64,000 nucleotides of DNA from contig NZ_JALLPO010000017.1 in NCBI RefSeq assembly GCF_023276435.1, forward strand, positions 1-64,000. Direction: 5' to 3'. The position numbers and the translations under genes were made by a program. Source of the DNA: Sphaerisporangium perillae (lineage in GTDB: Bacteria; Actinomycetota; Actinomycetes; Streptosporangiales; Streptosporangiaceae). The number at the start of each line of letters is the position of its first letter. Within the stretch, counting starts at the first letter, position 1. The notes under the pieces were generated by a model that made no database searches, had not been told where the DNA came from, and worked only from the letters and a program-made list of their open reading frames with translations. Positions 9,806 through 52,170 of this stretch are shown one piece after another.

Positions 9806-10363
9806 TCAGCCGGTGGAGGTCGCGCTCGGCTCAGGGGTGGTAGTGACCTTGGGCTGGGGCTTCAGAGAGGCTGCGAGCTGGGTCAGCTCGTCCCAGTCGG
9901 CCAGGCCGGTGACCACGACGGTCACGCCGGGCTCTATGCGCACCAGCGAGCGCTGGTTCTTGTCCGAGCGGAAACGCTCTTCCCAGGTCTCGCCGTTGAT
10001 CTGCCGGCTTCCGGTCGCCTTGTCGGTGTTGGCGAGGCGCGAGGCGAACGTCTGCCCCGGCTCGTCGCTCTGGGCGAGGAGGGCGTGGGAGCGCTTGGCC
10101 GTCGCGAACCCCAGCCGCCAGGTGACGTGCCCCTTCTGGTCGACCTCTGAGCTGTTGGGCACCCAGCGGGCGGGCACCGGATCGGGCACCCGGACCTCGT
10201 AGGGCGCGACGCGACGCAGGTTGGCGAGGGTGATCGTGTAGTCGACCCTCGGTATGTGCTCGGTGCGGCTCTGCGGCGCGATGAGCAGGAAGATGCCCAC
10301 GATCGCCAGGCAGAACAGCACGGCGAACGCGTACCCGTAGAAGCCTTGGGTGAACCGGTGCAC
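9806..10363 (-). CDS. DUF4245 membrane-anchored protein
   Basis: About 185 residues: an N-terminal transmembrane segment ([20 protein letters not shown], about residues 11-30) followed by a domain expected outside the membrane. This resembles DUF4245, found next to glpX or xseB in actinobacteria (Rv1100, from memory). Visible features are [37 protein letters not shown] and [19 protein letters not shown]. The function is unknown. The GTG at 10363 is chosen because longer versions would run into the TetR gene upstream and lack family similarity; it has no strong ribosome site. The last residues are Thr/Pro/Ser-rich. Confidence 0.72.
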
Positions 10364-10424
10364 AACCAGGGAGAATACCGGCCGGGCGGACGGCCTGGGA
10401 CGCGGTCCCGATCTTCGTGGCCGG

Positions 10425-11021
10425 CTAAGGCAGCGGGATCCGCTCGATGATGGCCAGGACGTCCTCGCTGAGCCTTCTCGCGGCGGCCACATCGTCCGAG
10501 AGCGCCACCTCGGACACGGCGGCGGCCAGCGCGCCGGTCACGACCACGACCAGGGCTCCCTTGTCGTCCTCGAAGAGTGCCGCGTTGCGCCGCGCCCACT
10601 GGCGCATGCGGTCACGCATGATCACCTCGAAGCCGGGAGGGCCGTCTCCCCGCAGGAACAGGGCGGCGAGCTCCCGCTCGTCGAAGCAGCCTTCGAGGTA
10701 GGCGCGGGCGCCGGCGATGAACAGCCGCATCGGGTCGGACTCGCCCTCGCCGCGGACCGCCTGGACGGCATGCTTGGTGCGCTGCGTCTGGCGGCTCTGG
10801 AACTCCTCGAAGAGGGTGAGGTACAGGTCGGCCTTGCCGGAGAAGTGGTGGTAGAGGCTGCCGACGCTTGCGCCCGCGCGGGAGACGACGTCGGTGACCC
10901 CGGCCTCGGCGAAGCCGCGTGTGACGAAGATCTCCCTGGCGGCCTCCAGGAGGGCGCCGCGCGTGGCGGCACCACGCTCCGAGGTGCGCACAGTCACCGG
11001 TCGTTCCGTGTCGCTGCTCAT
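10425..11021 (-). CDS. TetR family transcriptional regulator
   Basis: This 198-residue TetR repressor has a helix-turn-helix near residues 25-60 ([19 protein letters not shown], then [18 protein letters not shown]). The ligand-binding domain shows no recognisable specificity. ATG 11021 is preferred; a TTG fourteen codons upstream would add an atypical basic extension. It is divergent from glpX with 144 bases between them, so it could control glpX, itself, or the DUF4245 gene 61 bases downstream. No clear palindromic operator was spotted in the shared intergenic region. Confidence 0.88.
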
Positions 11022-11165
11022 GCAGGCGACAGTATCCCTCCGTCGGCCGCCGAAGGGGGACAACTACGATCGTTGCCATCGGCTGGATTAGAAGGTGGGG
11101 AGCCTGGTAGGTCCAGTACAGGGCGTCCCGCTCGCCGTTCGCACAACTTAGAGGGGCTTGTCACC

Positions 11166-12200
11166 ATGTCGGAGCAGACGTCTGTACCGCCCGCGCTGGC
11201 CACCGAGGAGCGCGCGCCCGATCGCAACCTGGCCCTGGAACTCGTCCGCGTCACCGAGGCGGCCGCGATGGCCGCGGCCCGCTGGGTGGGCAGGGGTGAC
11301 AAGAACGGCGCGGACGGCGCGGCGGTCAACGCCATGCGCCAGCTGATCAACACGGTCTCCATGGACGGCTGCGTGGTGATCGGCGAGGGCGAGAAGGACA
11401 ACGCCCCCATGCTGTACAACGGCGAAAGCGTGGGAGACGGCAGCGGCGCCCAGTGCGACGTGGCCGTCGACCCGATCGACGGCACCCGGCTGACCGCGCT
11501 CGGCATGCCGAACGCGATCTCTGTCATCGCGGTGAGCCCGCGCGGGTCGATGTACGACCCATCTGCGGTCTTCTACATGGACAAGCTGGTCACCGGCCCG
11601 GAGGCCGCGGACGCCGTCGACATCGACGCCCCGGTGGCCGCGAACATCGACGCCGTCGCCCGGGCCAAGGGATGCTCGCCGTCCGACGTCATGGTGGTCC
11701 TCCTCGACCGGCCCCGCCACGAGCGGCTCGCCAAGGAGATCCGCGACACGGGCGCGCGCATCAAGTTCATCACCGACGGCGACGTCGCCGGCGCGATCAT
11801 GGCGGCTCGCCGGGACACCGGCGTCGACCTGATGCTCGGCATCGGCGGCACCCCCGAGGGCATCATCGCGGCGTGCGCGCTGAAGTGCCTCGGCGGCGTG
11901 ATCCAGGGCAAGCTGTGGCCGCGCGACGAGGATGAGCGCCGCCGGGCCCTGGACGCCGGGCATGACCTCAACCGCATCCTCACCACCGACGACCTGGTCA
12001 CCTCCGACGATGTCTTCTTCGCCGCCTCGGGCATCACCGACGGCGAGCTGATGGGCGGCGTCCGCTATCGCGGGGGCGTCGCGGTGACCCATTCCCTGGT
12101 CATGCGCGGCAGGTCCGGCACGGTGCGCAAGGTGGAGAGCGAGCACCAGCTGTGGAAGCTCCGGGCGTACAGCGCCATCAACTTCGACACCGCCACCTGA
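11166..12200 (+). CDS. glpX: Class II fructose-1,6-bisphosphatase GlpX
   Basis: This 344-residue class II FBPase hydrolyses fructose-1,6-bisphosphate in gluconeogenesis, the only FBPase type in many actinobacteria. Metal-binding motifs are visible: [23 protein letters not shown] and [18 protein letters not shown] 11166 has GAGGGG nine bases upstream and gives the standard N-terminus; the open frame further upstream only shadows the TetR gene. With pckA at 42.5-44.3 kb, the window holds two key gluconeogenic enzymes. Confidence 0.96.
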
Positions 12201-42471: not shown

Positions 42472-44274
<1,803 letters not shown>

Positions 44275-44333
44275 GGGGCCGGCTCCTTACTCTCAGGCCA
44301 AACATCATTAACGACAAACCGCGCCGGATCCAA

Positions 44334-44348
44334 TTGGCATAGACCAGT
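44334..44348. promoter_or_regulatory. DasR/GntR-type operator candidate, pckA-proximal
   Basis: TTGGCATAGACCAGT contains TGGCATAGACCA, two mismatches from the DasR core TGGTCTAGACCA. It is 60-74 bases upstream of the pckA GTG, within reach of its promoter. Confidence 0.5.
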
Positions 44349-44581
44349 CAATGAAAGGAGAGCCCAAGAACTCCTCAAAAGAGAAGATCCGTCTCCCTCA
44401 TTTCGATGCTGTTTCATGCCTGTGAATTCGACGCGCCGCCGTGGCCCCTGTCCACTGCCCGTCCGTACGACGTCACGGCAGGCAGGGACCGCGAAGGTTC
44501 GTGGGAGTTTACCCACCCTTGGCCAAGATAAAAGAACCCGTTCCCGGCCGGCGGACCGCCCCTCCGCCGGCGCCGAGAAAC

Positions 44582-44638
44582 ATTGGTATAGGCCAATCCG
44601 AATGGTCTAGGCCTGTTGACGAATTGGTTCAGTCCAAT
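44582..44638. promoter_or_regulatory. Three clustered DasR/GntR-type operator candidates
   Basis: ATTGGTATAGGCCAAT (44582-44597), AATGGTCTAGGCCTGT (44601-44616) and ATTGGTTCAGTCCAAT (44623-44638) share the TGG-N6-CCA pattern of HutC/DasR-type GntR regulators. Centres are 19 and 22 bases apart. The last site abuts the stop codon of the next gene. Confidence 0.5.
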
Positions 44639-45160
44639 CTACGCATTGACGTCGGGGCCCGCCGAACGCACCCGATCGACGTGCTGGAGGGCATCTCGCA
44701 GGTCAGCGAGCCAGGTGTCGGTGTGGCTGCCCACCAGCCGCACGCACCACGCGAGCGCGTCGCTGCGGCTGCGCGCGACACCCGCCGCGACCAGCGTGTC
44801 GAGCACGCGCCGCTCCTGCTGACGCAGCCGCGTCATGACGGGGATGGAAAGCGTGGTGAACATCACTGTCTCCCCCTCGCAGGAGACGCCCCAGGACACC
44901 TTGCGGCGGAAGCGGTGCTCGGCCTCGCGGGCGATCTCGATGCGCCGCTCGCGGGTCTCCTCCCTGAAGCGCTGGATGTGCCCGTCGAGCAGGGCCGCCC
45001 GCTCGGCTCCGGACGCCGACTCGGCGGCGGCAGGCACGGGAAGCGTGCCGATCACCGCGATCTCCTCGCGGTCGAGGACGAACTCCTGCTCCCCGGAGAA
45101 CCACTCCTCGGGCAGGCGCCCGGTGAACCATGACGTGATCACTGATTCATCTGTTTCCAT
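44639..45160 (-). CDS. Hypothetical protein, possible DNA-binding autoregulator
   Basis: This 173-residue protein was not assigned to a named family. It starts SWFTGRLPEEWFSGEQEFVLDREEIAVIG, a beta-rich block at residues 10-38 (given here as a region, not a full motif). A helical middle rich in Arg/Glu follows. The C-terminal part is RLRQQERRVLDTLVAAG and ARSRSDALAWCVRLV, resembling a ribbon-helix-helix-like helix pair. A palindrome overlaps its -10 element, which would fit self-repression. ATG 45160 appears to be leaderless. Confidence 0.6.
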   Translation of the reverse strand: METDESVITSWFTGRLPEEWFSGEQEFVLDREEIAVIGTLPVPAAAESASGAERAALLDGHIQRFREETRERRIEIAREAEHRFRRKVSWGVSCEGETVMFTTLSIPVMTRLRQQERRVLDTLVAAGVARSRSDALAWCVRLVGSHTDTWLADLRDALQHVDRVRSAGPDVNA

Positions 45161-45195
45161 GTAATGAAGATTACACCCATACCTCCGGACCTCAA
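45161..45195 (-). promoter_or_regulatory. Leaderless promoter with overlapping palindrome
   Basis: On the minus strand TTGAGG (45190-45195), a 16-base spacer and TAATCT (45168-45173) end seven bases before the ATG, so the transcript would start at or next to the start codon. GTAATGAAGATTAC (45161-45174) is an inverted repeat with perfect 5-base arms covering the -10 element. Confidence 0.55.
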
Positions 45196-45338
45196 AGAGG
45201 CAGTTATTGACACTTGCTCGTTTCCTTCGGCGTCGCCACCGCGGCGGCCGTAGCCGAGCAGCCCGTCAGGCCGGCCGAGGTCACATCGAGCCCTCGTGGG
45301 GCGAGACCGTAACCCCGTCGTCAAGCGAGAATTGGAAG

Positions 45339-45950
45339 ATGAGCTCACCTGCCCGCACCGAGCAGCACCGTCACGGTCTTCGCGAGCGCAAGAAGGCCAG
45401 AACCCGGCGGAGCATCCAGGAACACGCCATGCGGCTGTTCGTCGAGCAGGGCTACGACAACACCACGATCGAGCAGATCGCCGAGGCGGCGGAGGTCTCG
45501 CCCAGCACGTTCTTCCGCTACTTCCCCACCAAGGAAGACGTGGTCATCCAGGACGACTACGACCCCATGATCGCCTCGGCCTTCCTCGCGCAGCCCGCCT
45601 CGCTCACCCCGCTCGCCGCGATGCGCGCGGCGGTACGCCAGGTCTTCGCCGAGGTGTTCCCCGAGGACGAGGAGACGATCCTCCGGCGCATCCAGCTGGT
45701 CTGGTCGATCCCCTCTCTCCGCGCCCGGCAGGTGGACGGCCAGATCGACACCATCGCCATGCTCAGGCGCGCCATCGCCGAACGCTCCGGCCGACCCGCC
45801 GACGACTTCCGGGTGCACGTCCTCGCGGGCGCCGTCGTGGGCGCCTGGGTCGCCGCCATCGAACGCTGGGTCGAGTCCGACGGACAGGAGCCCCTCGTCG
45901 GCCTCATGGACCGTGTCCTGGTCCTCCTCGAAGAGGGCCTGCCTCTCTGA
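45339..45950 (+). CDS. TetR family transcriptional regulator
   Basis: This 203-residue TetR regulator has its helix-turn-helix at about residues 20-65: ARTRRSIQEHAMRLF, DNTTIEQIAEAAEVSPSTFFRYF and PTKEDVV. The C-terminal domain (MftR/TetR_17-like, with RRIQLVWSIPSLRARQ) has no identified ligand. ATG 45339 has GGAAG close by; frames upstream add unrelated sequence. It is divergent from the hypothetical regulator and ends ten bases from a convergent membrane protein gene. Confidence 0.88.
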   Translation: MSSPARTEQHRHGLRERKKARTRRSIQEHAMRLFVEQGYDNTTIEQIAEAAEVSPSTFFRYFPTKEDVVIQDDYDPMIASAFLAQPASLTPLAAMRAAVRQVFAEVFPEDEETILRRIQLVWSIPSLRARQVDGQIDTIAMLRRAIAERSGRPADDFRVHVLAGAVVGAWVAAIERWVESDGQEPLVGLMDRVLVLLEEGLPL

Positions 45951-45959
45951 CCCGCGGTC

Positions 45960-46319
45960 TCACCGGGAAGTCGTCATGATCGAGATGACCATGACGACGA
46001 TCATCAGCAATCCTACGAGGACCGCCGCGACGCGTACTTTCGCGAGGTCGGCGTCGTCCTTGTCGCGCCCGACCTTCTGAGCGCTCTCCCTCAACATCAC
46101 GCCGCTCATCAAGACGGCGGCGACCACGGCCGTCCACAGCGCCCCTTTAGCGCTCGGCCCGCCGTGGTCGTCGGCCAGCAGAAAGAAGTACACGAATTCG
46201 GCGATGGCAAGCCCGGCGACACCTAGAAGCACCCACCGCGCCCAGCGTCCTCCGGGCAAGATCACCTCACTGGCGATGAAAAGTGCACGGCGATCCCGCT
46301 CACTACGTGGTCGGGTCAT
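45960..46319 (-). CDS. Small three-span membrane protein
   Basis: This 119-residue protein has three hydrophobic segments: about residues 28-48 (WVLLGVAGLAIAEFVYFFLL), 58-75 and 97-115 (VAAVLVGLLMIVVMVISIM). A charged loop (RESAQKVGRDKDDADLAKV) lies between the last two. The family is not recognised. Its ATG is immediately next to a 30-base tandem repeat, so repeats form its 5' region. It is convergent with the TetR gene. Confidence 0.65.
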   Translation of the reverse strand: MTRPRSERDRRALFIASEVILPGGRWARWVLLGVAGLAIAEFVYFFLLADDHGGPSAKGALWTAVVAAVLMSGVMLRESAQKVGRDKDDADLAKVRVAAVLVGLLMIVVMVISIMTTSR

Positions 46320-46771
46320 CGTGGTCCGGTCACATCATGGTCGGGTCAACGTGGTCCGGTCACATCATGGTCGGGTCAACGTGGTCCGGTCACATCATGG
46401 TCGGGTCAACGTGGTCCGGATCATCGTGGCCGCATCACCTCGTTGTACGGAAGACGATTTCACGCCTCGCGAAGGTTCCCGGAAGGGGGCTCGCGTCCGC
46501 TCCGGCCCGCGGGGACGGCGCAAACCTGTATTCGGCAATGCCCAGCATGCACGTGGGGTGGTCGTTGTGGTGCGCGTATGCCGTGTGGTGCGCGCTGCGG
46601 GCCTCCCATCCGCGATCGGCGTTGCTGTCGTGGATCTTTCCGCTGGGTATGGTGACAGTCGTGCTCATCACGGGGAACCACTACGTGCTCGACATCGCCG
46701 GAAGCACCGTGTTGCTGGGCGTCTCCATCGCTGTACGGCGGATAGTCGCTCTTGGACTGTTCCGCGGCTGA
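46283..46771 (+). pseudogene. PAP2-superfamily phosphatase remnant
   Basis: The frame from 46283 encodes 162 residues. Its last 83 (46523-46771) match the C-terminal half of PAP2/inositol-phosphorylceramide-synthase-like enzymes: NLYSAMPSMHVGWS (the PSxxxxH region) and TGNHYVLDIAG (NHxxxD). The first conserved motif (KxxxxxxRP) and the early membrane spans are absent. The N-terminal part is made of GHIMVGSTWS units from the 30-bp repeat and overlaps the opposite membrane protein gene. A truncated, probably non-functional gene is the best reading; a short real protein is less likely. Confidence 0.6.
46321..46419. repeat. 30-bp perfect tandem repeat, 3.3 copies
   Basis: Units at 46321-46350, 46351-46380 and 46381-46410 are identical; a nine-base partial unit follows. 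Each begins GTGGTCCGGTCACATCATGG. There are no spacers. Because 30 is a multiple of three, the plus frame encodes a repeated decapeptide. The array lies directly upstream of the minus-strand membrane protein start. Confidence 0.92.
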
Positions 46772-46976
46772 ATGCTCCTGTTCACGACCCGGGTCTTAGG
46801 CTCCGGTCAAAGGCGCCGGGTACACCCGGAAAGGTGTTGACGCCCCCGTCGACTCGCCCGTGCTCCTTCCGGCCGACACGCTCGCGCGCCATCCCGTCGA
46901 CAATTCGTGACAGCTCACCCAGCGCGACTGCCCTACCGTGTTTCCTCCCCAGGGCTGAAGCCCGGGGTCTCCACGC
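46772..46976. other. Intergenic region with an IS200/IS605-like end
   Basis: No gene is supported. The right end (46937-46978) contains TTTCCTCCCC followed by AGGGCTGAAGCCCGGGGTCT. This resembles the right-end hairpin and tail of IS200/IS605-type (TnpB) elements in actinobacteria, by memory. It ends exactly at the 3' end of the RiPP maturation gene. Confidence 0.4.
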
Positions 46977-46978
46977 TC
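46937..46978. mobile_element. Possible IS200/IS605 right-end scar
   Basis: CCCC (46947-46950), A, GGGCT, GA, AGCCC, GGGG (46964-46967) folds into a nine-pair hairpin with one bulge, preceded by TTTCCT and followed by TCTCCACGC. No tnpA or tnpB reading frame is nearby, so at most a scar or a solo end is present. Similarity is from memory and needs a database comparison. Confidence 0.35.
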
Positions 46979-48059
46979 AAGGGCGATTCGATGAGCCGGT
47001 GCGGTCGGTGGTGCCCCAGAACCACTCGATCTTGGCCGTGCTCCTGCGCCGCTCGATCCACTCGGCGAAGAGCCGCCGCTCGATCTGGTCCCGCACGGGC
47101 CCGTCGAGGACGGCGGGCACGATGGCCAGCACCTTGAACAGCACGGGGCCGTCCCCGGTCTCGACCGGCCCGACGACCGTGCCGGGAGCCGCCCCGAACA
47201 CCCGCTCGGCCGCCTCCGGGCTCAGCTCACCTCGCCGTAGCGTCACGAACAGCGGCCCCGGCAGGGCCTCGCCCTTCGCGAACGCCCGCTCGGCCGCTCC
47301 CAGGAAGGCGCCGGGAGGCGTCGCTTGCGCAGGTTCCGGTTCGGTGAGCTCGGGGACGAGCCGGTCGGCGTCGGTGAGGGTGAGCTGGACGACGCGGGCG
47401 ATGTCGAGTTCGGGGCCGTGTTCGGCGAACCACTCCTCGACGTGCCCGGCGGCGACCCGGGTGCGCAGCCGGGCCACCGACGCCTCGGCGATGACCAGTT
47501 CCTCCAGCTCCGCATGGGTGATGCGGTTGCGGTCCATCCAGGTCCGGGTCGCCTCGGCGGTCAGCAGGCCGCGGGCCCGGCGGAAGGCGTTCATCGCCTC
47601 CTGCAGCTCCGCGTCGGTGAACCGCTCCGGCGCCTCCTCCAGCACCTCACGGACCAGGCTGTCGGTGACGAGCCGGTCGGCCACCCTGGACTCGTCCCAG
47701 ATGAAGTCCAGGCAGGCGATGGCCCTGGCGACCGGGGTGTCGACGCCGTTGACCCGCAGCAGCAGGTGCTCGGCGGCCCTGTGCACGCCCCGCAGCGGCC
47801 AAGGCAGGGCCGTGCCGGGGCACCAGGACAGGGAGACGGTGGAGCCGGCCTGGTCCTTGACGAGCAGGGCGTGGTGCAGCGATCCGTCGTACTCCTCCCG
47901 CTGCCTGATCAGGCGTGCCCGCACCTGCGGGTGATCAGCGCGGAAGGCGTCCAGGTCGCGTTCCGCCGTGCCGCCGCTGAGCAGGCGGACCGCGTCGGCC
48001 AGCACCTGCCCGTCCGTCATCGTGGGGACCGCGTCGGCCGGCACCTGCCCGTCCGTCAT
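46977..48059 (-). CDS. PpiC-related peptide maturation system protein
   Basis: This 360-residue protein resembles the peptide maturation family with a PpiC-like C-terminus found beside ATP-grasp RiPP ligases (I recall TIGR04500; unverified). The N-terminal half is unlike known enzymes (HHALLVKDQAGSTVSLSWCPG, ACLDFIWDESRVADRLV). The C-terminal half from about residue 240 shows the parvulin-like pattern: GELSPEAAERVFGAAPGTVVGPVE, then GPVLFKVLAIVPAVLD. Its ATG overlaps the ATP-grasp stop (ATGA). The first 13 residues are duplicated, giving a second in-frame ATG at 48020. The 3' end touches an IS605-like scar. Confidence 0.75.
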   Translation of the reverse strand: MTDGQVPADAVPTMTDGQVLADAVRLLSGGTAERDLDAFRADHPQVRARLIRQREEYDGSLHHALLVKDQAGSTVSLSWCPGTALPWPLRGVHRAAEHLLLRVNGVDTPVARAIACLDFIWDESRVADRLVTDSLVREVLEEAPERFTDAELQEAMNAFRRARGLLTAEATRTWMDRNRITHAELEELVIAEASVARLRTRVAAGHVEEWFAEHGPELDIARVVQLTLTDADRLVPELTEPEPAQATPPGAFLGAAERAFAKGEALPGPLFVTLRRGELSPEAAERVFGAAPGTVVGPVETGDGPVLFKVLAIVPAVLDGPVRDQIERRLFAEWIERRRSTAKIEWFWGTTDRTGSSNRP

Positions 48060-48061
48060 CG
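47987..48061. repeat. 36-bp direct duplication at the maturation gene start
   Basis: Copies at 47987-48022 and 48026-48061 match at 35 of 36 bases, with a period of 39. Each includes the ATG and MTDGQV coding sequence, so the protein begins MTDGQVPADAVPT followed by MTDGQVLADAVRL. A recent duplication is likely. Confidence 0.85.
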
Positions 48062-49030
48062 CTTCTTCCCCTCCATGAGAAGGTCGCCGACCGCCGCGCT
48101 GATGGGCAGGCCGGTCGCCGCCTCGATCCACAGGAACTGCCCGTTCGGGTTGATCTCCAGGAAGACGTACCGGCCGTCGGGGGTGAGGATCAGGTCGATC
48201 GCCCCGTAGGTGAGCCCGAGCGATTCGACCAGGGCCACGCAGCGCGCGGACGTCTCGCCGGGCAGGTCGTGCTCCATGATCGGTGTGGCGCCGGGGTCGT
48301 AGTGCCGCCAGTCGTACTTGGTGTGGTTGCTCACCTGCGAGTGGATCTCCGCCGCGAAGACCCGCGTCCCGGCGACCGTCACCCGGATCTCGACCCGCTT
48401 GGGCACGTAGGCCTGCGCGATGACCGGGCAGAAGCGCAGCGCGCCGGCGTAGCCCACATCGGCGGTGGACACCGGGGCGGCGAACCGGCCGAACCGCTCG
48501 TCCGTGCCTTCGGGCTGGTTGCCGTGGACCGGCTTGGTGATCACGCGTCCCTCGTGCCGGTCATAGAAGTCCAGGAACGTCTCGGGGTCGGTCGTCACGA
48601 GCGTCGCGGGAAGCTCGAAGCCCAGCCGCCGGGCCTGTTCAAGCTGGTACGGCTTGCGCCCGGCGCGGTCGATGACGGGCCTGGACGCGGGGACCGCGAG
48701 GCAGTCGAGGCTGTCCCACAGGCTCTCGGAGACGACGCGGCACTCCTCTTCGACGTACGCGGCGTAGGGCCGGGACGCGATCTCCGGGTGCGCGACGGGA
48801 TTCATGGGGCGCCGGTACCAGAACGCGGTCACCTCGTCGAGGGCCACCCGGCGGCCGCCGCCGTGGAGCACCCTGCGCGCCGGCCCGGTCTCCGGGTGGG
48901 CGATCTCCAGGGTGGCCTGGGTGGGATAGGCGGCCGGGTCGAAGACGACGACGTCCGCTCCGCCAGCCGACAGGAGGTCGACGACCTGTTCGGCGTGCTC
49001 GTCGCCGTCACAGGTCAGAACGAGAATCAT
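48056..49030 (-). CDS. ATP-grasp peptide ligase (MvdD-like RiPP maturase)
   Basis: This 324-residue ATP-grasp enzyme resembles the MvdC/MvdD and SAV_5884-type families that form ester or amide crosslinks in ribosomal peptides. Features: an N-terminal pre-ATP-grasp domain (LVLTCDGDEHAEQVVDLL, AFWYRRP), the ATP-binding Lys in VITKPVHGNQ, VIAQAYVPKRVEIRVTV, GAIDLILTPDG and the metal-binding FLEINPNGQF. ATG 49030 has GGGGGAG eight bases upstream. The precursor gene is 119 bases upstream and the maturation protein overlaps its end. Confidence 0.88.
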   Translation of the reverse strand: MILVLTCDGDEHAEQVVDLLSAGGADVVVFDPAAYPTQATLEIAHPETGPARRVLHGGGRRVALDEVTAFWYRRPMNPVAHPEIASRPYAAYVEEECRVVSESLWDSLDCLAVPASRPVIDRAGRKPYQLEQARRLGFELPATLVTTDPETFLDFYDRHEGRVITKPVHGNQPEGTDERFGRFAAPVSTADVGYAGALRFCPVIAQAYVPKRVEIRVTVAGTRVFAAEIHSQVSNHTKYDWRHYDPGATPIMEHDLPGETSARCVALVESLGLTYGAIDLILTPDGRYVFLEINPNGQFLWIEAATGLPISAAVGDLLMEGKKR

Positions 49031-49115
49031 CGGCGAGCTCCCCCGGTCTCCGCTGCTCTCTGACTCGATCGGCCGGGAGGAGGGAGCTTGCCGGCTCCCC
49101 GGTCCCCCCGGGGAC

Positions 49116-49142
49116 GGGGGCGCGGCGACGGGCCGCGCCCCC
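49116..49142 (-). terminator. Attenuator-like hairpin between precursor and ATP-grasp genes
   Basis: GGGGGCGCGGC (49116-49126), a five-base loop and GCCGCGCCCCC (49132-49142) form an 11-bp perfect stem, seven bases after the precursor stop codon. Partial termination here would make more precursor than enzyme message. Two weaker GC stems lie between it and the ATP-grasp start. Confidence 0.65.
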
Positions 49143-49149
49143 TGCCACC

Positions 49150-49299
49150 TCAGTTCGAGTCGCCCGAGGTGTGGGTGTGGCCACCGTGGATGACGATGAC
49201 CTGGCTCTTGGCGCCGCCGCTGACCTGCAGAAGCTGGCTCTCGTCGAGCTCGGCGCCCAGCGCCGCGATGTCGTTGAGTGAGGTACGCGTCTTGCTCAT
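49150..49299 (-). CDS. RiPP precursor peptide, 49 aa (graspetide candidate)
   Basis: This 49-residue peptide has a leader MSKTRTSLNDIAALGAELDE and a double-glycine motif at 28-29 (LLQVSGG), the usual leader end in many RiPPs. The proposed core is residues 30-49: AKSQVIVIHGGHTHTSGDSN. It has hydroxyl donors (S32, T42, T44, S45, S48) and one acidic acceptor (D47), as needed for an ATP-grasp ester ring. A second GG at 39-40 could be an alternative cleavage site. ATG 49299 follows GGTGGA; a longer frame upstream has no ribosome site. No export or C39 peptidase gene is adjacent. Confidence 0.75.
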   Translation of the reverse strand: MSKTRTSLNDIAALGAELDESQLLQVSGGAKSQVIVIHGGHTHTSGDSN

Positions 49300-49500
49300 G
49301 GCAATCCACCCGTCTGTCGTTCGTACGGAACACCCGATGTGTCCCGTTCCCCGGAAGAAATTAAGCGGGTGGCACACTCAGGAGCGTCCCTCGCGCGGAT
49401 GATCGCCGATCACCCGTCAGGCGGACGGATCCGAACTCGAGCGGACGTCTCGCCCCGATCAGTAGGTGTCAGGCCGGACGAAGCCGGCCGAGCGGGTGGG

Positions 49501-50877
49501 TCAGCGGACGCGGGCGGCCACCCAGGGGCTCACGCGGACGACTCCGGCGAGGTTCTTGGTGTAGACCGGGGCGATCTTGACGACGTCGCCGGTGTGGGGG
49601 GCGTGCAGCATCTTGCCGTCGCCCCAGTAGATGGCCACGTGCGAGATGTACCCGGGGTTGGTCGGGTCGTTGCGCCAGAACAGCAGGTCTCCGGGCTGTG
49701 CCTGGGCGAGGGGGATCTGCGGCCCGGTCACCCACTGCTGGTGGGTCACCCGGGGCATGCGCACCCCTGCCTGGGCGAACGCCCACTGCACGAGCCCCGA
49801 GCAGTCGAAGGTGTCCGGCCCCTCGGCGCCCCAGACGTACGGCCGGCCGAGCTTGCCGACCGCGGCCGTCAGGGCCACCCGCATCTGGTCCTGCGACATG
49901 AAGGAGCTGACCGGCCAGTTGGTGCGCGCCTTGGCCGGAGGGGTGAGGACGGGGTTGATCAGGGCGACCTGGCTGCCCTTCGGCAGCACCTTGAGCAGCT
50001 GGAGGCGGAGCCGGGTCGAGTCGGCGCCGGGCGCGCTGACGACGAGCGCGTTGTGCTCGGGGATGCCCAGCGACTTGGCGACGTCCCGGGACACCACGGC
50101 GTTGATCATGCCCATGCCCATGGTGGCGTACGCGCCGACGCGGAGCTTCCTGCCGCCCCCGTTGACGGTGGAGCCGAGCGCCACCCCGCCGTCGTTGCCG
50201 AGGATGAACGAGACGGCGACGTCGCCCGCCGCGACGCTGTTCCACAGGACGTCGGAGCGGGCGGTGGCGCGCGGGGTGTACGCGCGGAACGTGGAGGGGT
50301 TCACACCCATGGTCTGCACGCGTTTGCCGTCCATCATCACGTCGGCGGCGTCCACGACCTCGACCGCCTTGACCCCCTTGCGCGCCTTGACCCTGTGGAC
50401 GGCCGCCGCGGACAGCGGGCGGGGCGCGACGACGAACAGCTGGGGCTTGCGCAGCTCGGCCAGCGGCGTGACCTGCGTGGTGGTGGAGGCGAGCGGCGGG
50501 TCGGCGGCGCGGGCCGCCACGAGATCACGAGCCGCGAGATCGCGCGTGGACGCCAGGTCGCGCGCCTCGACGTACCCCGACTCGCGCTTGGCCGCGGCGT
50601 GCTGCGACGCTGCGACCGCCCGCGGATCGCGCTTGCCGAGTTCTCCGATGACCATCAGGTCGGCGGCCAGGACCGCGACGAGCCCGGCGGCGATGACCGG
50701 CACGGCGTGGCGCGGCAGCCGCGCCCGCGTGCGGCGGCGGCGCGGGACCCGGGGCCGGTAGCTCAGGTCCTCGCGGGCCTCCGCGAGCGCGCCGCTCAGG
50801 TAGCCGCGGGCGGAGCTCACGCTGCGGGTGAGGCTCTCTCGGACGACGGTCGAGCCACGCGGTCGCCGATCGAGCAC
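49501..50877 (-). CDS. NlpC/P60 family cell-wall hydrolase
   Basis: This 458-residue protein has a basic N-terminus, one membrane anchor (VPVIAAGLVAVLAADLMVIG), an extracytoplasmic region of about 250 residues and a C-terminal NlpC/P60 domain. The catalytic Cys is in DTFDCSGLVQWAF and the His in GYISHVAIYWGDGKMLHAPH. It should cleave peptidoglycan stem peptides. GTG 50877 is preferred because AAGGGGTGGA precedes it; ATG 50916 has no ribosome site. It is upstream of the RiPP cassette on the same strand with about 200 bases between, but is probably a separate cell-wall gene. Confidence 0.9.
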   Translation of the reverse strand: MLDRRPRGSTVVRESLTRSVSSARGYLSGALAEAREDLSYRPRVPRRRRTRARLPRHAVPVIAAGLVAVLAADLMVIGELGKRDPRAVAASQHAAAKRESGYVEARDLASTRDLAARDLVAARAADPPLASTTTQVTPLAELRKPQLFVVAPRPLSAAAVHRVKARKGVKAVEVVDAADVMMDGKRVQTMGVNPSTFRAYTPRATARSDVLWNSVAAGDVAVSFILGNDGGVALGSTVNGGGRKLRVGAYATMGMGMINAVVSRDVAKSLGIPEHNALVVSAPGADSTRLRLQLLKVLPKGSQVALINPVLTPPAKARTNWPVSSFMSQDQMRVALTAAVGKLGRPYVWGAEGPDTFDCSGLVQWAFAQAGVRMPRVTHQQWVTGPQIPLAQAQPGDLLFWRNDPTNPGYISHVAIYWGDGKMLHAPHTGDVVKIAPVYTKNLAGVVRVSPWVAARVR

Positions 50878-51061
50878 GTTCCACCCCTTCTCGCGCTGAT
50901 TTTCACGGTCGAGCATCGCCGATGCATCAACGAGGGTGCCGCATGCCCGCTGGATACGTCCAGGCGTGCACCGGAACGTGCGGGCGTATGTCGTCCCCGT
51001 CCATGCCTGATTGTCCCGAAGTCGGCGCCGGATGTCCGGTGATTGGCCCACAATCAGCCGA

Positions 51062-51090
51062 GATCCGCCGGAGTCGTACTCCGGCGGATC
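51062..51090 (-). terminator. Hairpin downstream of greA
   Basis: GATCCGCCGGAGT (51062-51074) and ACTCCGGCGGATC (51078-51090) pair over 13 bases with a CGT loop. It is 52 bases beyond the greA stop on the minus strand and ahead of the NlpC/P60 gene. This is a strong terminator stem without a T tract. Confidence 0.7.
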
Positions 51091-51142
51091 ATGTCACGGG
51101 CTCTGGACGCGCCCGTCGACCGGGCGGGATCGGCCGCCGGGC

Positions 51143-51643
51143 TCAGTTGCCGATGTACGGCACGGCCTCGAGGATCTCCACGGTGTTCTGCCTGCCGTTG
51201 GGCAGCGTATAGGTGGCCCTCTCGCCGATCTTCTTGCCGTTGATCGCGGCGCCGAGCGGGGAGCGGGGCGAGTAGACGTCGATCGGGGCGCCGCTCTCCT
51301 CGCGGGAGGCCAGCAGGAAGGTGACCTCGTCCTCGTCGCCGTCGAACCGGATGGTCACGGTCATGCCGGGGCCGACCACGCCCTCGGCGCGGGGGGCCTC
51401 GCCCACTCTCGCCTGATCGAGGAGCTGGCGGAGCTGGAGGATGCGGCCCTCCATCTTCCCCTGCTCCTCCTTGGCGGCGTGGTATCCGCCGTTCTCCTTG
51501 AGGTCGCCTTCTTCGCGGGCGGCTTCGATCTTCTTGGCGATGTCGACGCGCCCGGGCCCCGAGAGATACTCAAACTCCGCCCTCAGGCGGTCGTACGCCT
51601 CCTGGGTCAGCCAGGTGACGTTCTCTTCGCGGGAGTCGACCAC
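51143..51643 (-). CDS. greA: Transcription elongation factor GreA
   Basis: This 166-residue protein rescues backtracked RNA polymerase by stimulating transcript cleavage. The N-terminal coiled coil ends in the family motif DLKENGGYHAAKEEQG with the acidic tip, and the C-terminal domain has SPLGAAINGKKIGE. The GTG start is backed by AAGGAG. It precedes a terminator-like hairpin and follows the DUF4307 gene, as in the recalled Rv1080c-Rv1081c pair. Confidence 0.96.
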   Translation of the reverse strand: MVDSREENVTWLTQEAYDRLRAEFEYLSGPGRVDIAKKIEAAREEGDLKENGGYHAAKEEQGKMEGRILQLRQLLDQARVGEAPRAEGVVGPGMTVTIRFDGDEDEVTFLLASREESGAPIDVYSPRSPLGAAINGKKIGERATYTLPNGRQNTVEILEAVPYIGN

Positions 51644-51732
51644 GGGTTCTCCTTGCGTACTCGTGAGAGCTGCGAGCGTCCGAATTCCGGGAGACTAACA
51701 AATTAACCCGGCCGGACGCTTTCCCAAAAGTC

Positions 51733-52170
51733 TCATTGTACGAGATAGCAGTACTGGACGTGGCCCGAAGTGGCGCGAGCGCTGGTGTGCAGCCGCTCCG
51801 TCAGCCGGACGTCGGACTCTCCTCGGGGGAGGGTGACGTCGCGGGTGCCGACCTCGACATGCTCGACGTCGGTGGCCCGCAGCCTGCACACCGCCGCCTG
51901 GTCGGCGGGCTTGTGCGCTTGGAAGGTTACCGTGACCAAGCTCGGATCGACGACTTCGAAAGAGATCACTTCCGTGAGCACGTCCGGATTTCCCCTCGCG
52001 GCCATCATGACGTAGCCCCAGCCACCCATGGCGAACGCGATAAAGATCCCGATGACGACGAAGGCAATCGATCGTCCGGTGCGCCCGGAAGTGGTGGGAC
52101 GCTCCGGGAAAGAGTCTGGGGTCCCTAGGATCGGCCCGTCCACGTGCGGACCGACGACTCTATCGGTCAT
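51733..52170 (-). CDS. DUF4307 membrane protein
   Basis: This 145-residue protein has one membrane span (IAFVVIGIFIAFAMGGWGYV, residues 34-54) and a predicted outer domain with VTVTFQAHKPADQAAVCRLRA (a 21-residue region near position 80) and a paired Cys near the C-terminus (HVQYCYLV). It resembles DUF4307, conserved between greA and mca in actinobacteria. Function is unknown. It is divergent from mca with 133 bases between. Confidence 0.8.
   Translation of the reverse strand: MTDRVVGPHVDGPILGTPDSFPERPTTSGRTGRSIAFVVIGIFIAFAMGGWGYVMMAARGNPDVLTEVISFEVVDPSLVTVTFQAHKPADQAAVCRLRATDVEHVEVGTRDVTLPRGESDVRLTERLHTSARATSGHVQYCYLVQ

Follow-up and report, generated by a model that had tools for sequence, protein, structure and literature searches.

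What peptide is made by a unit of three genes whose precursor carries one conserved acid, and why does its ligase keep a partner protein related to parvulins? These questions are raised by a stretch of 64,000 nucleotides from Sphaerisporangium perillae (NCBI RefSeq assembly GCF_023276435.1, contig NZ_JALLPO010000017.1, positions 1 to 64,000), here called the window, in which positions 46977-49299 of the minus strand hold, in the order A, B, C, genes for a 49-residue precursor with a double-glycine leader, an ATP-grasp ligase and a PpiC-related protein. A preliminary description of this DNA had read the three as a peptide-modifying unit, with a FLEINPNGQF motif in the ligase and an ATGA overlap coupling it to the PpiC-related gene, and on these points it was accurate: all three reading frames are open, the family matches agree, the motif begins at residue 290 of B, and B and C overlap by four bases, a spacing seen in nine of 12 type-I loci compared, the window included. 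We find the same cassette, which we call type I, at 16 distinct loci in as many genomes. The cassette is real and of a known kind, and it represents a distinct sub-clade of partner-protein graspetides with a one-acid, proline-free, histidine-rich core. Its product is probably, though by no means certainly, a monocyclic peptide closed by one 16-residue macrolactone between core residues Ser3 and Asp18 and exported in trans by a C39 peptidase-exporter.

The assignment of B to the MvdD/MvdC-like ATP-grasp macrocyclases is carried by both sequence profiles and fold. B scores 45.9 bits against Pfam PF21068 ATPgraspMvdD (cut-off 27), and its best NCBIfam match is TIGR04187 at 229.6 bits, under the cut-off of 350; the rosaritide-like ligase of G386, a genome of another family in the same class, also falls under that cut-off (236.1 bits). 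The structure model of B has a confidence score (pLDDT) of 90.4, and the nine best solved entries in the fold comparison are all graspetide macrocyclases. An E-x-R motif and the E-x-N motif are kept in 14 of 14 type-I ligases aligned, and the type-I ligases form one fully supported clade (14 rows, 100/100). RimK, LysX and glutathione synthetase score far lower than graspetide ligases in profiles and fold comparison alike, and we reject a non-peptide ATP-grasp enzyme, the outcome that the preliminary description had said would count against it. B shares its fold and conserved motifs with MdnC, MdnB, AMdnB, PruB, CdnC and PsnB; the portions of the rosaritide report drawn on here state that a need for a second protein had not been seen among characterised graspetides before rosaritide (PMC13097080).

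The leader of A ends in LLQVSGG and is followed by a core of 20 residues, AKSQVIVIHGGHTHTSGDSN. Against TIGR04497, 'putative ATP-grasp target RiPP', A scores 24.6 bits where the cut-off is 32, over residues 6-31 only; it thus stays below the whole-protein cut-off, while the likeness of its leader to TIGR04497 members is clear. Across the 16 loci the core is nearly fixed as [A/V][K/R]SQVI[V/T/E]I[H/C][G/N][G/N]H[T/S]HTSGDS(N). In 14 tabulated precursors 12 of the 20 positions are invariant (S3, Q4, V5, I6, I8, H12, H14, T15, S16, G17, D18 and S19), and two further precursors (L146, L149) retain all 12, so that Ser3 and Asp18 are present in 16 of 16. Position 9 is His, replaced by Cys in L035 and L036 only; these two lie apart on the ligase tree, each adjoining His9 relatives, and each swap takes two base changes (CAC/TGC). 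Position 13 is Thr or Ser, and position 20 is Asn, missing in L044. Asp18 is the single invariant acid, with Glu7 present in some cores, and proline is found in none of the 16 cores, nor anywhere in the window's precursor. The precursor is not a chance frame: 16 distinct genomes, counting that of the window, have it next to B and C, and its ratio of nonsynonymous to synonymous differences (pN/pS) is 0.27 over 47 aligned codons.

The 16 loci, at every one of which A, B and C stand together in this order, answer the co-occurrence check that the preliminary description had proposed for the three genes. They fall in Sphaerisporangium, Streptosporangium, Microtetraspora and Nonomuraea, and the carriers include Sphaerisporangium fuscum, Streptosporangium canum, S. 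minutum, S. carneum, Microtetraspora malaysiensis, M. glauca, Nonomuraea jabiensis, N. wenchangensis, N. glycinis, N. spiralis and N. cavernae. By genus, type I occurs in 8 of 54 genomes (genus of N. cavernae), 4 of 16 (of S. canum), 1 of 4 (of M. glauca) and 2 of 11 in the window's own genus. Among 297 same-family genomes, 12 have the window's precursor type, all with E 2.3e-20 or better; in the remaining 18 with a precursor match the score is no better than 1.5e-5, and the match covers the leader with, at most, a portion of the core.

The partner protein places the cassette beside rosaritide. C scores 374.3 bits against TIGR04500, 'putative peptide maturation system protein' (cut-off 180), and adjoins the ligase in 16 of 16 type-I loci. 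TIGR04500 appears among graspetide-associated families in the parts of a 2022 survey used here (PMC8939145), and an ATP-grasp ligase adjoins the TIGR04500 gene in 31 of 31 loci (L001-L031). The family matches in 92 of 297 same-family genomes, 68 of them over the cut-off, with two matches in the window's genome; class-wide, 15 of 394 genomes have a match at E 1e-40 or better, and G386 is the sole one outside the family. As described in the relevant sections of the March 2026 report, rosaritide of Micromonospora rosaria (mirABCD, graspetide group 21) is made by a TIGR04187 ligase, MirB, a TIGR04500 partner, MirC, and a C39 peptidase-exporter (PCAT), MirD; MirA with MirB alone gave no mass shift, MirB with MirC gave three macrolactones, MirB and MirC copurify, and one of the three rings joins Ser9 to Asp26, a pair connected by a nuclear Overhauser effect (PMC13097080). 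The preliminary description had known no characterised product to match; this stands for the core, which is distinct from that of rosaritide, but not for the pairing of ligase and PpiC-like partner, which rosaritide precedes.

G386 stands in for M. rosaria in our core comparison. Its locus has A, B and C in the type-I order with a homologous leader and a PCAT-like open reading frame, its B and C are 48% and 34% identical to those of the window, and its core is LPRNGAGSSKTIDDIPGGGRPDTDTDFD, for a precursor whose start codon was our choice. Core residues Ser8, Ser9, Thr11, Asp13, Asp14, Ile15, Pro16, Arg20, Pro21, Asp22, Asp24 and Asp26 fit the published rosaritide numbering, and we therefore infer that this core is a rosaritide homologue. 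An alignment of nine precursors (four type I, four of a group we call type IV, and G386) puts type-I Ser3 on Ser9 and Asp18 on Asp26 of the rosaritide-like core, and its gap-free last ten residues put His14 on Asp22 and Ser16 on Asp24. Type I thus shares with rosaritide the precursor, the TIGR04187-type ligase and the TIGR04500 partner, but differs in having one invariant acid where rosaritide has three ring acids, His and Ser at two of the three acceptor positions, no proline, and no adjoining exporter in the window; the three donors and three Asp acceptors of the rosaritide core, used here in place of a group 21 consensus, are not found together in type I. The type IV precursors (TIGR04497, GRASP_targ_2; for example L095, RKFEWSSHVITPDGSVDAKDLDF) have the same leader as type I, ligases 58-61% identical to those of type I and, in two of the four aligned, a common S-[HQ]-V-[IM] core start. 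They retain several donors and several acids, whereas type I, of the pairs aligned, retains that of Ser3 and Asp18, and it has gained [H/C]xxHxH; the L095 precursor lies over the TIGR04497 cut-off and type I under it.

Because Ser3 and Asp18 align with Ser9 and Asp26 while His and Ser occupy the remaining two acceptor positions, a single ring is predicted at Ser3-Asp18, and we forecast that only the outermost ring of a three-ring scaffold is left in type I. In the pathway we propose, the leader of A would be bound by a B-C complex like that of MirB and MirC, and B would use ATP to phosphorylate the Asp18 side chain; attack by the Ser3 hydroxyl on the activated acid would then close one 16-residue macrolactone with loss of one water. 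C would stabilise B and present the substrate as a chaperone, with no prolyl isomerase action, and a C39 peptidase-ABC exporter would cut after Gly-Gly and export the ring, in the window's genome presumably in trans. With one invariant side-chain acceptor, the product is expected to be lighter by one water, a change readable by mass spectrometry.

The model of C (pLDDT 85.5) comprises an N-terminal domain of unsure kin, a SurA-like chaperone part and a parvulin-like domain at about residues 215-316, the last recognisable by sequence and fold, with a partial Rotamase_2 match (33.0 bits, cut-off 27). The parvulin active site has two histidines. Histidine is absent from residues 217-319 of the window's C; none of the columns at residues 220-228 holds three histidines in 38 rows, or two in the 13 type-I rows, and residue 305, which we read as the other active-site position, is His in 7 of 13 type-I rows and Pro in the window. 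We model C as a SurA/parvulin-like protein with an eroded active site. It resembles the periplasmic chaperones SurA, PEB4 and Cj1289, which carry a parvulin domain, but differs from them in its coupling to the biosynthetic ligase of an actinomycete, in an additional N-terminal part and, in the window's copy, in the missing parvulin histidines. The chaperone and parvulin parts account for the fold-match lists of C, which come from a search with the whole protein, its N-terminal domain, a candidate RiPP recognition element, included. A prolyl-isomerase role on the core was considered and rejected; since no type-I core has proline, such activity is not why the partner is kept. Rosaritide is the one characterised example we found of a graspetide ligase that depends on a TIGR04500 partner, whose role is debated (chaperone, isomerase or substrate presenter), and the type-I clade offers a near-minimal natural test of that role. 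Through a 39-bp duplication the window's C is longer at its N-terminus by about 13 residues and has two possible ATG starts; in 11 other type-I loci the match to C starts at query residue 13 or 14, or in one case at residue 5. In N. glycinis (L043, 9301-10707, minus strand) the match to C is split into query residues 14-313 and 318-355, about 420 bases apart, and the gene may be interrupted there.

Several observations weigh against a Ser3-Asp18 ring made with the help of C. The core alignment is short and gapped, which leaves the donor, Ser3, less secure than the acceptor, Asp18; hydroxyls are conserved also at residue 13 (Thr or Ser), Thr15, Ser16 and Ser19, and the C-terminal carboxylate is a potential acceptor. 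Dependence of B on C in the type-I clade would follow from the MirB/MirC precedent, and C, taken over its full length, gives a loose fold match (best Foldseek TM-scores 0.33/0.44, root-mean-square deviation 11.9). The core also has a higher pN/pS (0.56) than the leader (0.18), in part from low synonymous change in the core, the core value being rough at a synonymous divergence of 0.17 against 0.36. An unlikely alternative, though one with a real chance, is a different ring or two rings, with residue 13, Thr15 or Ser19 as donor or the C-terminal carboxylate as a second acceptor. The invariance of Thr15, Ser16 and Ser19, and the hydroxyl always present at residue 13, fit this view, but the homologous Ser3/Asp18 pair is retained, Thr15, Ser16 and Ser19 lie at most three residues from Asp18, where ring closure would be unlikely, and L044 without its last Asn indicates that the C-terminus is not fixed. 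The rosaritide report, in the sections used here, moreover describes graspetide acceptors as Asp/Glu (PMC13097080).

It seems to us very unlikely that the Asp18 activated by B is joined to something else, be it an amine, a second peptide or a backbone amide (which would give an aspartimide), leaving no side-chain ring and the conserved His/Cys residues to make the product. A core with one invariant acid and 12 invariant positions, more than a ring alone needs, would suit such coupling; B nevertheless groups with side-chain macrocyclases by sequence and fold, and the five neighbouring frames given to Pfam include no aspartimide-type (protein L-isoaspartate) methyltransferase, the wider neighbourhoods having had no profile scan. 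We hold it highly improbable that the cassette is a decaying remnant of a rosaritide-like cluster, on its way out after losing two acceptors and the exporter. Six of 16 loci do lack an exporter beside C, a parvulin-site histidine is missing in 6 of 13 type-I rows including the window, C is matched in two pieces in L043, and the window's C carries its duplication. A remnant is nevertheless hard to reconcile with a reduced core common to 16 genomes in several genera, with ligases in one fully supported clade, or with three open frames, a low precursor pN/pS and retained ATP-grasp motifs in the window.

For the monocyclic graspetide that we favour, export poses a question of its own. In 10 of the 16 type-I loci 197-824 nucleotides separate a PCAT match from the match to C, and none was seen by C within the stretches examined for the window, L042, L034, L039, L044 and L060 (N. 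spiralis, where the absence applies to the local stretch). The window therefore lacks the in-cluster exporter of the rosaritide type, and its genome has only two C39 domains that we found, both on other contigs: one on C51, by the second TIGR04500 cluster, and a stand-alone one on C1. Of 12 family-set genomes, five have no PCAT by the cassette, and each of these five has a further TIGR04500 locus with a PCAT close by; seven do have a PCAT by the cassette, and three of them have a further TIGR04500 locus, which in one case is partial. This is a hint of exporter sharing between TIGR04500 loci; it weighs against trans export that the numbers are small (Fisher p 0.08, or 0.03 without the one partial locus). 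Trans export, like any biological role, is what we infer for the window.

The second TIGR04500 graspetide cluster of this genome (L046 on C51, B at 10971-11936, minus strand) has its own PCAT and two tandem precursors with cores RWSVSWTIGGKPAEWVNN and RMHVSWYTGGKPSEWEGTNN; this KPxEW precursor type recurs in other genomes, several with one acid per core. The C1 exporter (L050, 6854-9064, minus strand; G000:C1:134857-137061) is a lone C39 peptidase-exporter among housekeeping genes. Copies 77-78% identical are present in G108, G162 and G191, and because these genomes have no TIGR04500 match the stand-alone exporter may serve some other peptide there.

The fixed histidines invite a functional reading. 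In type I a three-ring scaffold seems to have come down to one ring and to have taken on an unvarying His-rich stretch, which suggests a specific function, and one distinctly unlikely but concrete candidate is a secreted one-ring binder of copper or zinc, with a putative site [His/Cys]9-x2-His12-x-His14 inside the Ser3-Asp18 ring, for which two acceptor acids of the rosaritide-type scaffold would have been traded away. In its favour, position 9 is always His or Cys, and His12 and His14 never vary. We know of no metal-binding graspetide of this [His/Cys]-His-His kind. A word search of the literature for graspetide, histidine and metal-binding returned no paper, and HTHTSGD, HSHTSGD, TIGR04497 and GRASP_targ_2 were absent from the literature text searched, although the supplement of the rosaritide report, with >20,000 predicted graspetides, may well include the core (PMC13097080).

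The features of the locus are collected in the table below.

Features of the type-I cassette in the window, in positions of the whole stretch
Feature	Positions	Strand	Remarks
Gene A, 49-residue precursor	49150..49299	-	ATG at 49299; leader 49213-49299 ending Gly-Gly; predicted core 49153-49212 (AKSQVIVIHGGHTHTSGDSN)
GC-rich hairpin, 11-bp perfect stem and 5-nt loop	49116..49142	-	7 bases past the precursor stop
Gene B, 324-residue MvdD-like ATP-grasp macrocyclase (graspetide synthetase)	48056..49030	-	family profiles, model, fold comparison
Gene C, 360-residue TIGR04500 partner	46977..48059	-	family profile, model; ATGA overlap with B
39-bp tandem duplication, 1.9 copies	47987..48061	-	5' end of gene C

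All 16 type-I loci have a GC hairpin after the precursor; in the window the surrounding 96-nt stretch gives z -2.8. A script recovers a perfect stem of at least 9 bp with a loop of at most 10 in 13 of them, and the alignment supplies the remaining three, where the loop is longer in L042, the stem of L034 includes a G-U pair and that of L035 a single mismatch. Over 15 distinct rows, 98.0% of 148 cells are paired, against 46-68% after sliding by one to three columns. Covariation support is thin: two of ten pairs changed on both sides, and, since the columns of the alignment hardly vary, shuffles average 96.6%, with 29 of 500 reaching 98.0%. No T-run terminator or sigma-70-like promoter was found in 46700-49600, where actinobacterial promoters may escape the search, and no Rfam element reached the gathering threshold in 44000-52000. 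The hairpin is likely an attenuation, processing or mRNA-stability element favouring the precursor over the enzymes; it probably caps or slows the transcript, which would leave more precursor than enzyme.

In S. fuscum (G197, L042) the cassette occupies the same site, flanked as in the window by an NlpC/P60 gene and a TetR-type gene. These two genes are directly adjacent in six of nine cassette-free genomes of the genus, and in another (L135) they are separated by 4.4 kb of other sequence; for L130 and L134 there was no TetR match within the stretch taken. The cassette was either gained at this site or lost in the other genomes of the genus. No tRNA was found in the whole window. The preliminary description had seen no exporter, protease or regulator beside the unit. 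This was right for exporter and protease, but downstream lies the TetR-type gene (45207-45950); because it is present at the site in seven of the nine cassette-free genomes, we reject it as a pathway regulator and place it probably outside the unit. Between cassette and TetR gene the window has a 30-bp tandem repeat (46306-46419, 3.7 copies, 98% match), which runs into a PAP2_3 open frame truncated to profile positions 113-189 of 190, the whole region spanning 46283-46771; in S. fuscum some 10-20 bases only separate gene C from the TetR gene.

Related arrangements occur elsewhere. In the DPPG-type clusters L047, L138, L139 and L140, three or four different tandem precursors stand ahead of one ligase and form a natural combinatorial set. 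Among Myxococcota, a Myxococcaceae metagenome-assembled genome and Hyalangium (L063 and L062) carry a TIGR04187-like ligase (47%; B at 10001-10969) beside a TIGR04500-like protein (37-38%), and partner-type graspetides therefore reach beyond Actinomycetota; in L063, C scores 242 bits for TIGR04500 and the precursor core is Cys-rich (RLAVQDLACTCPNTCGPCGPDDH).

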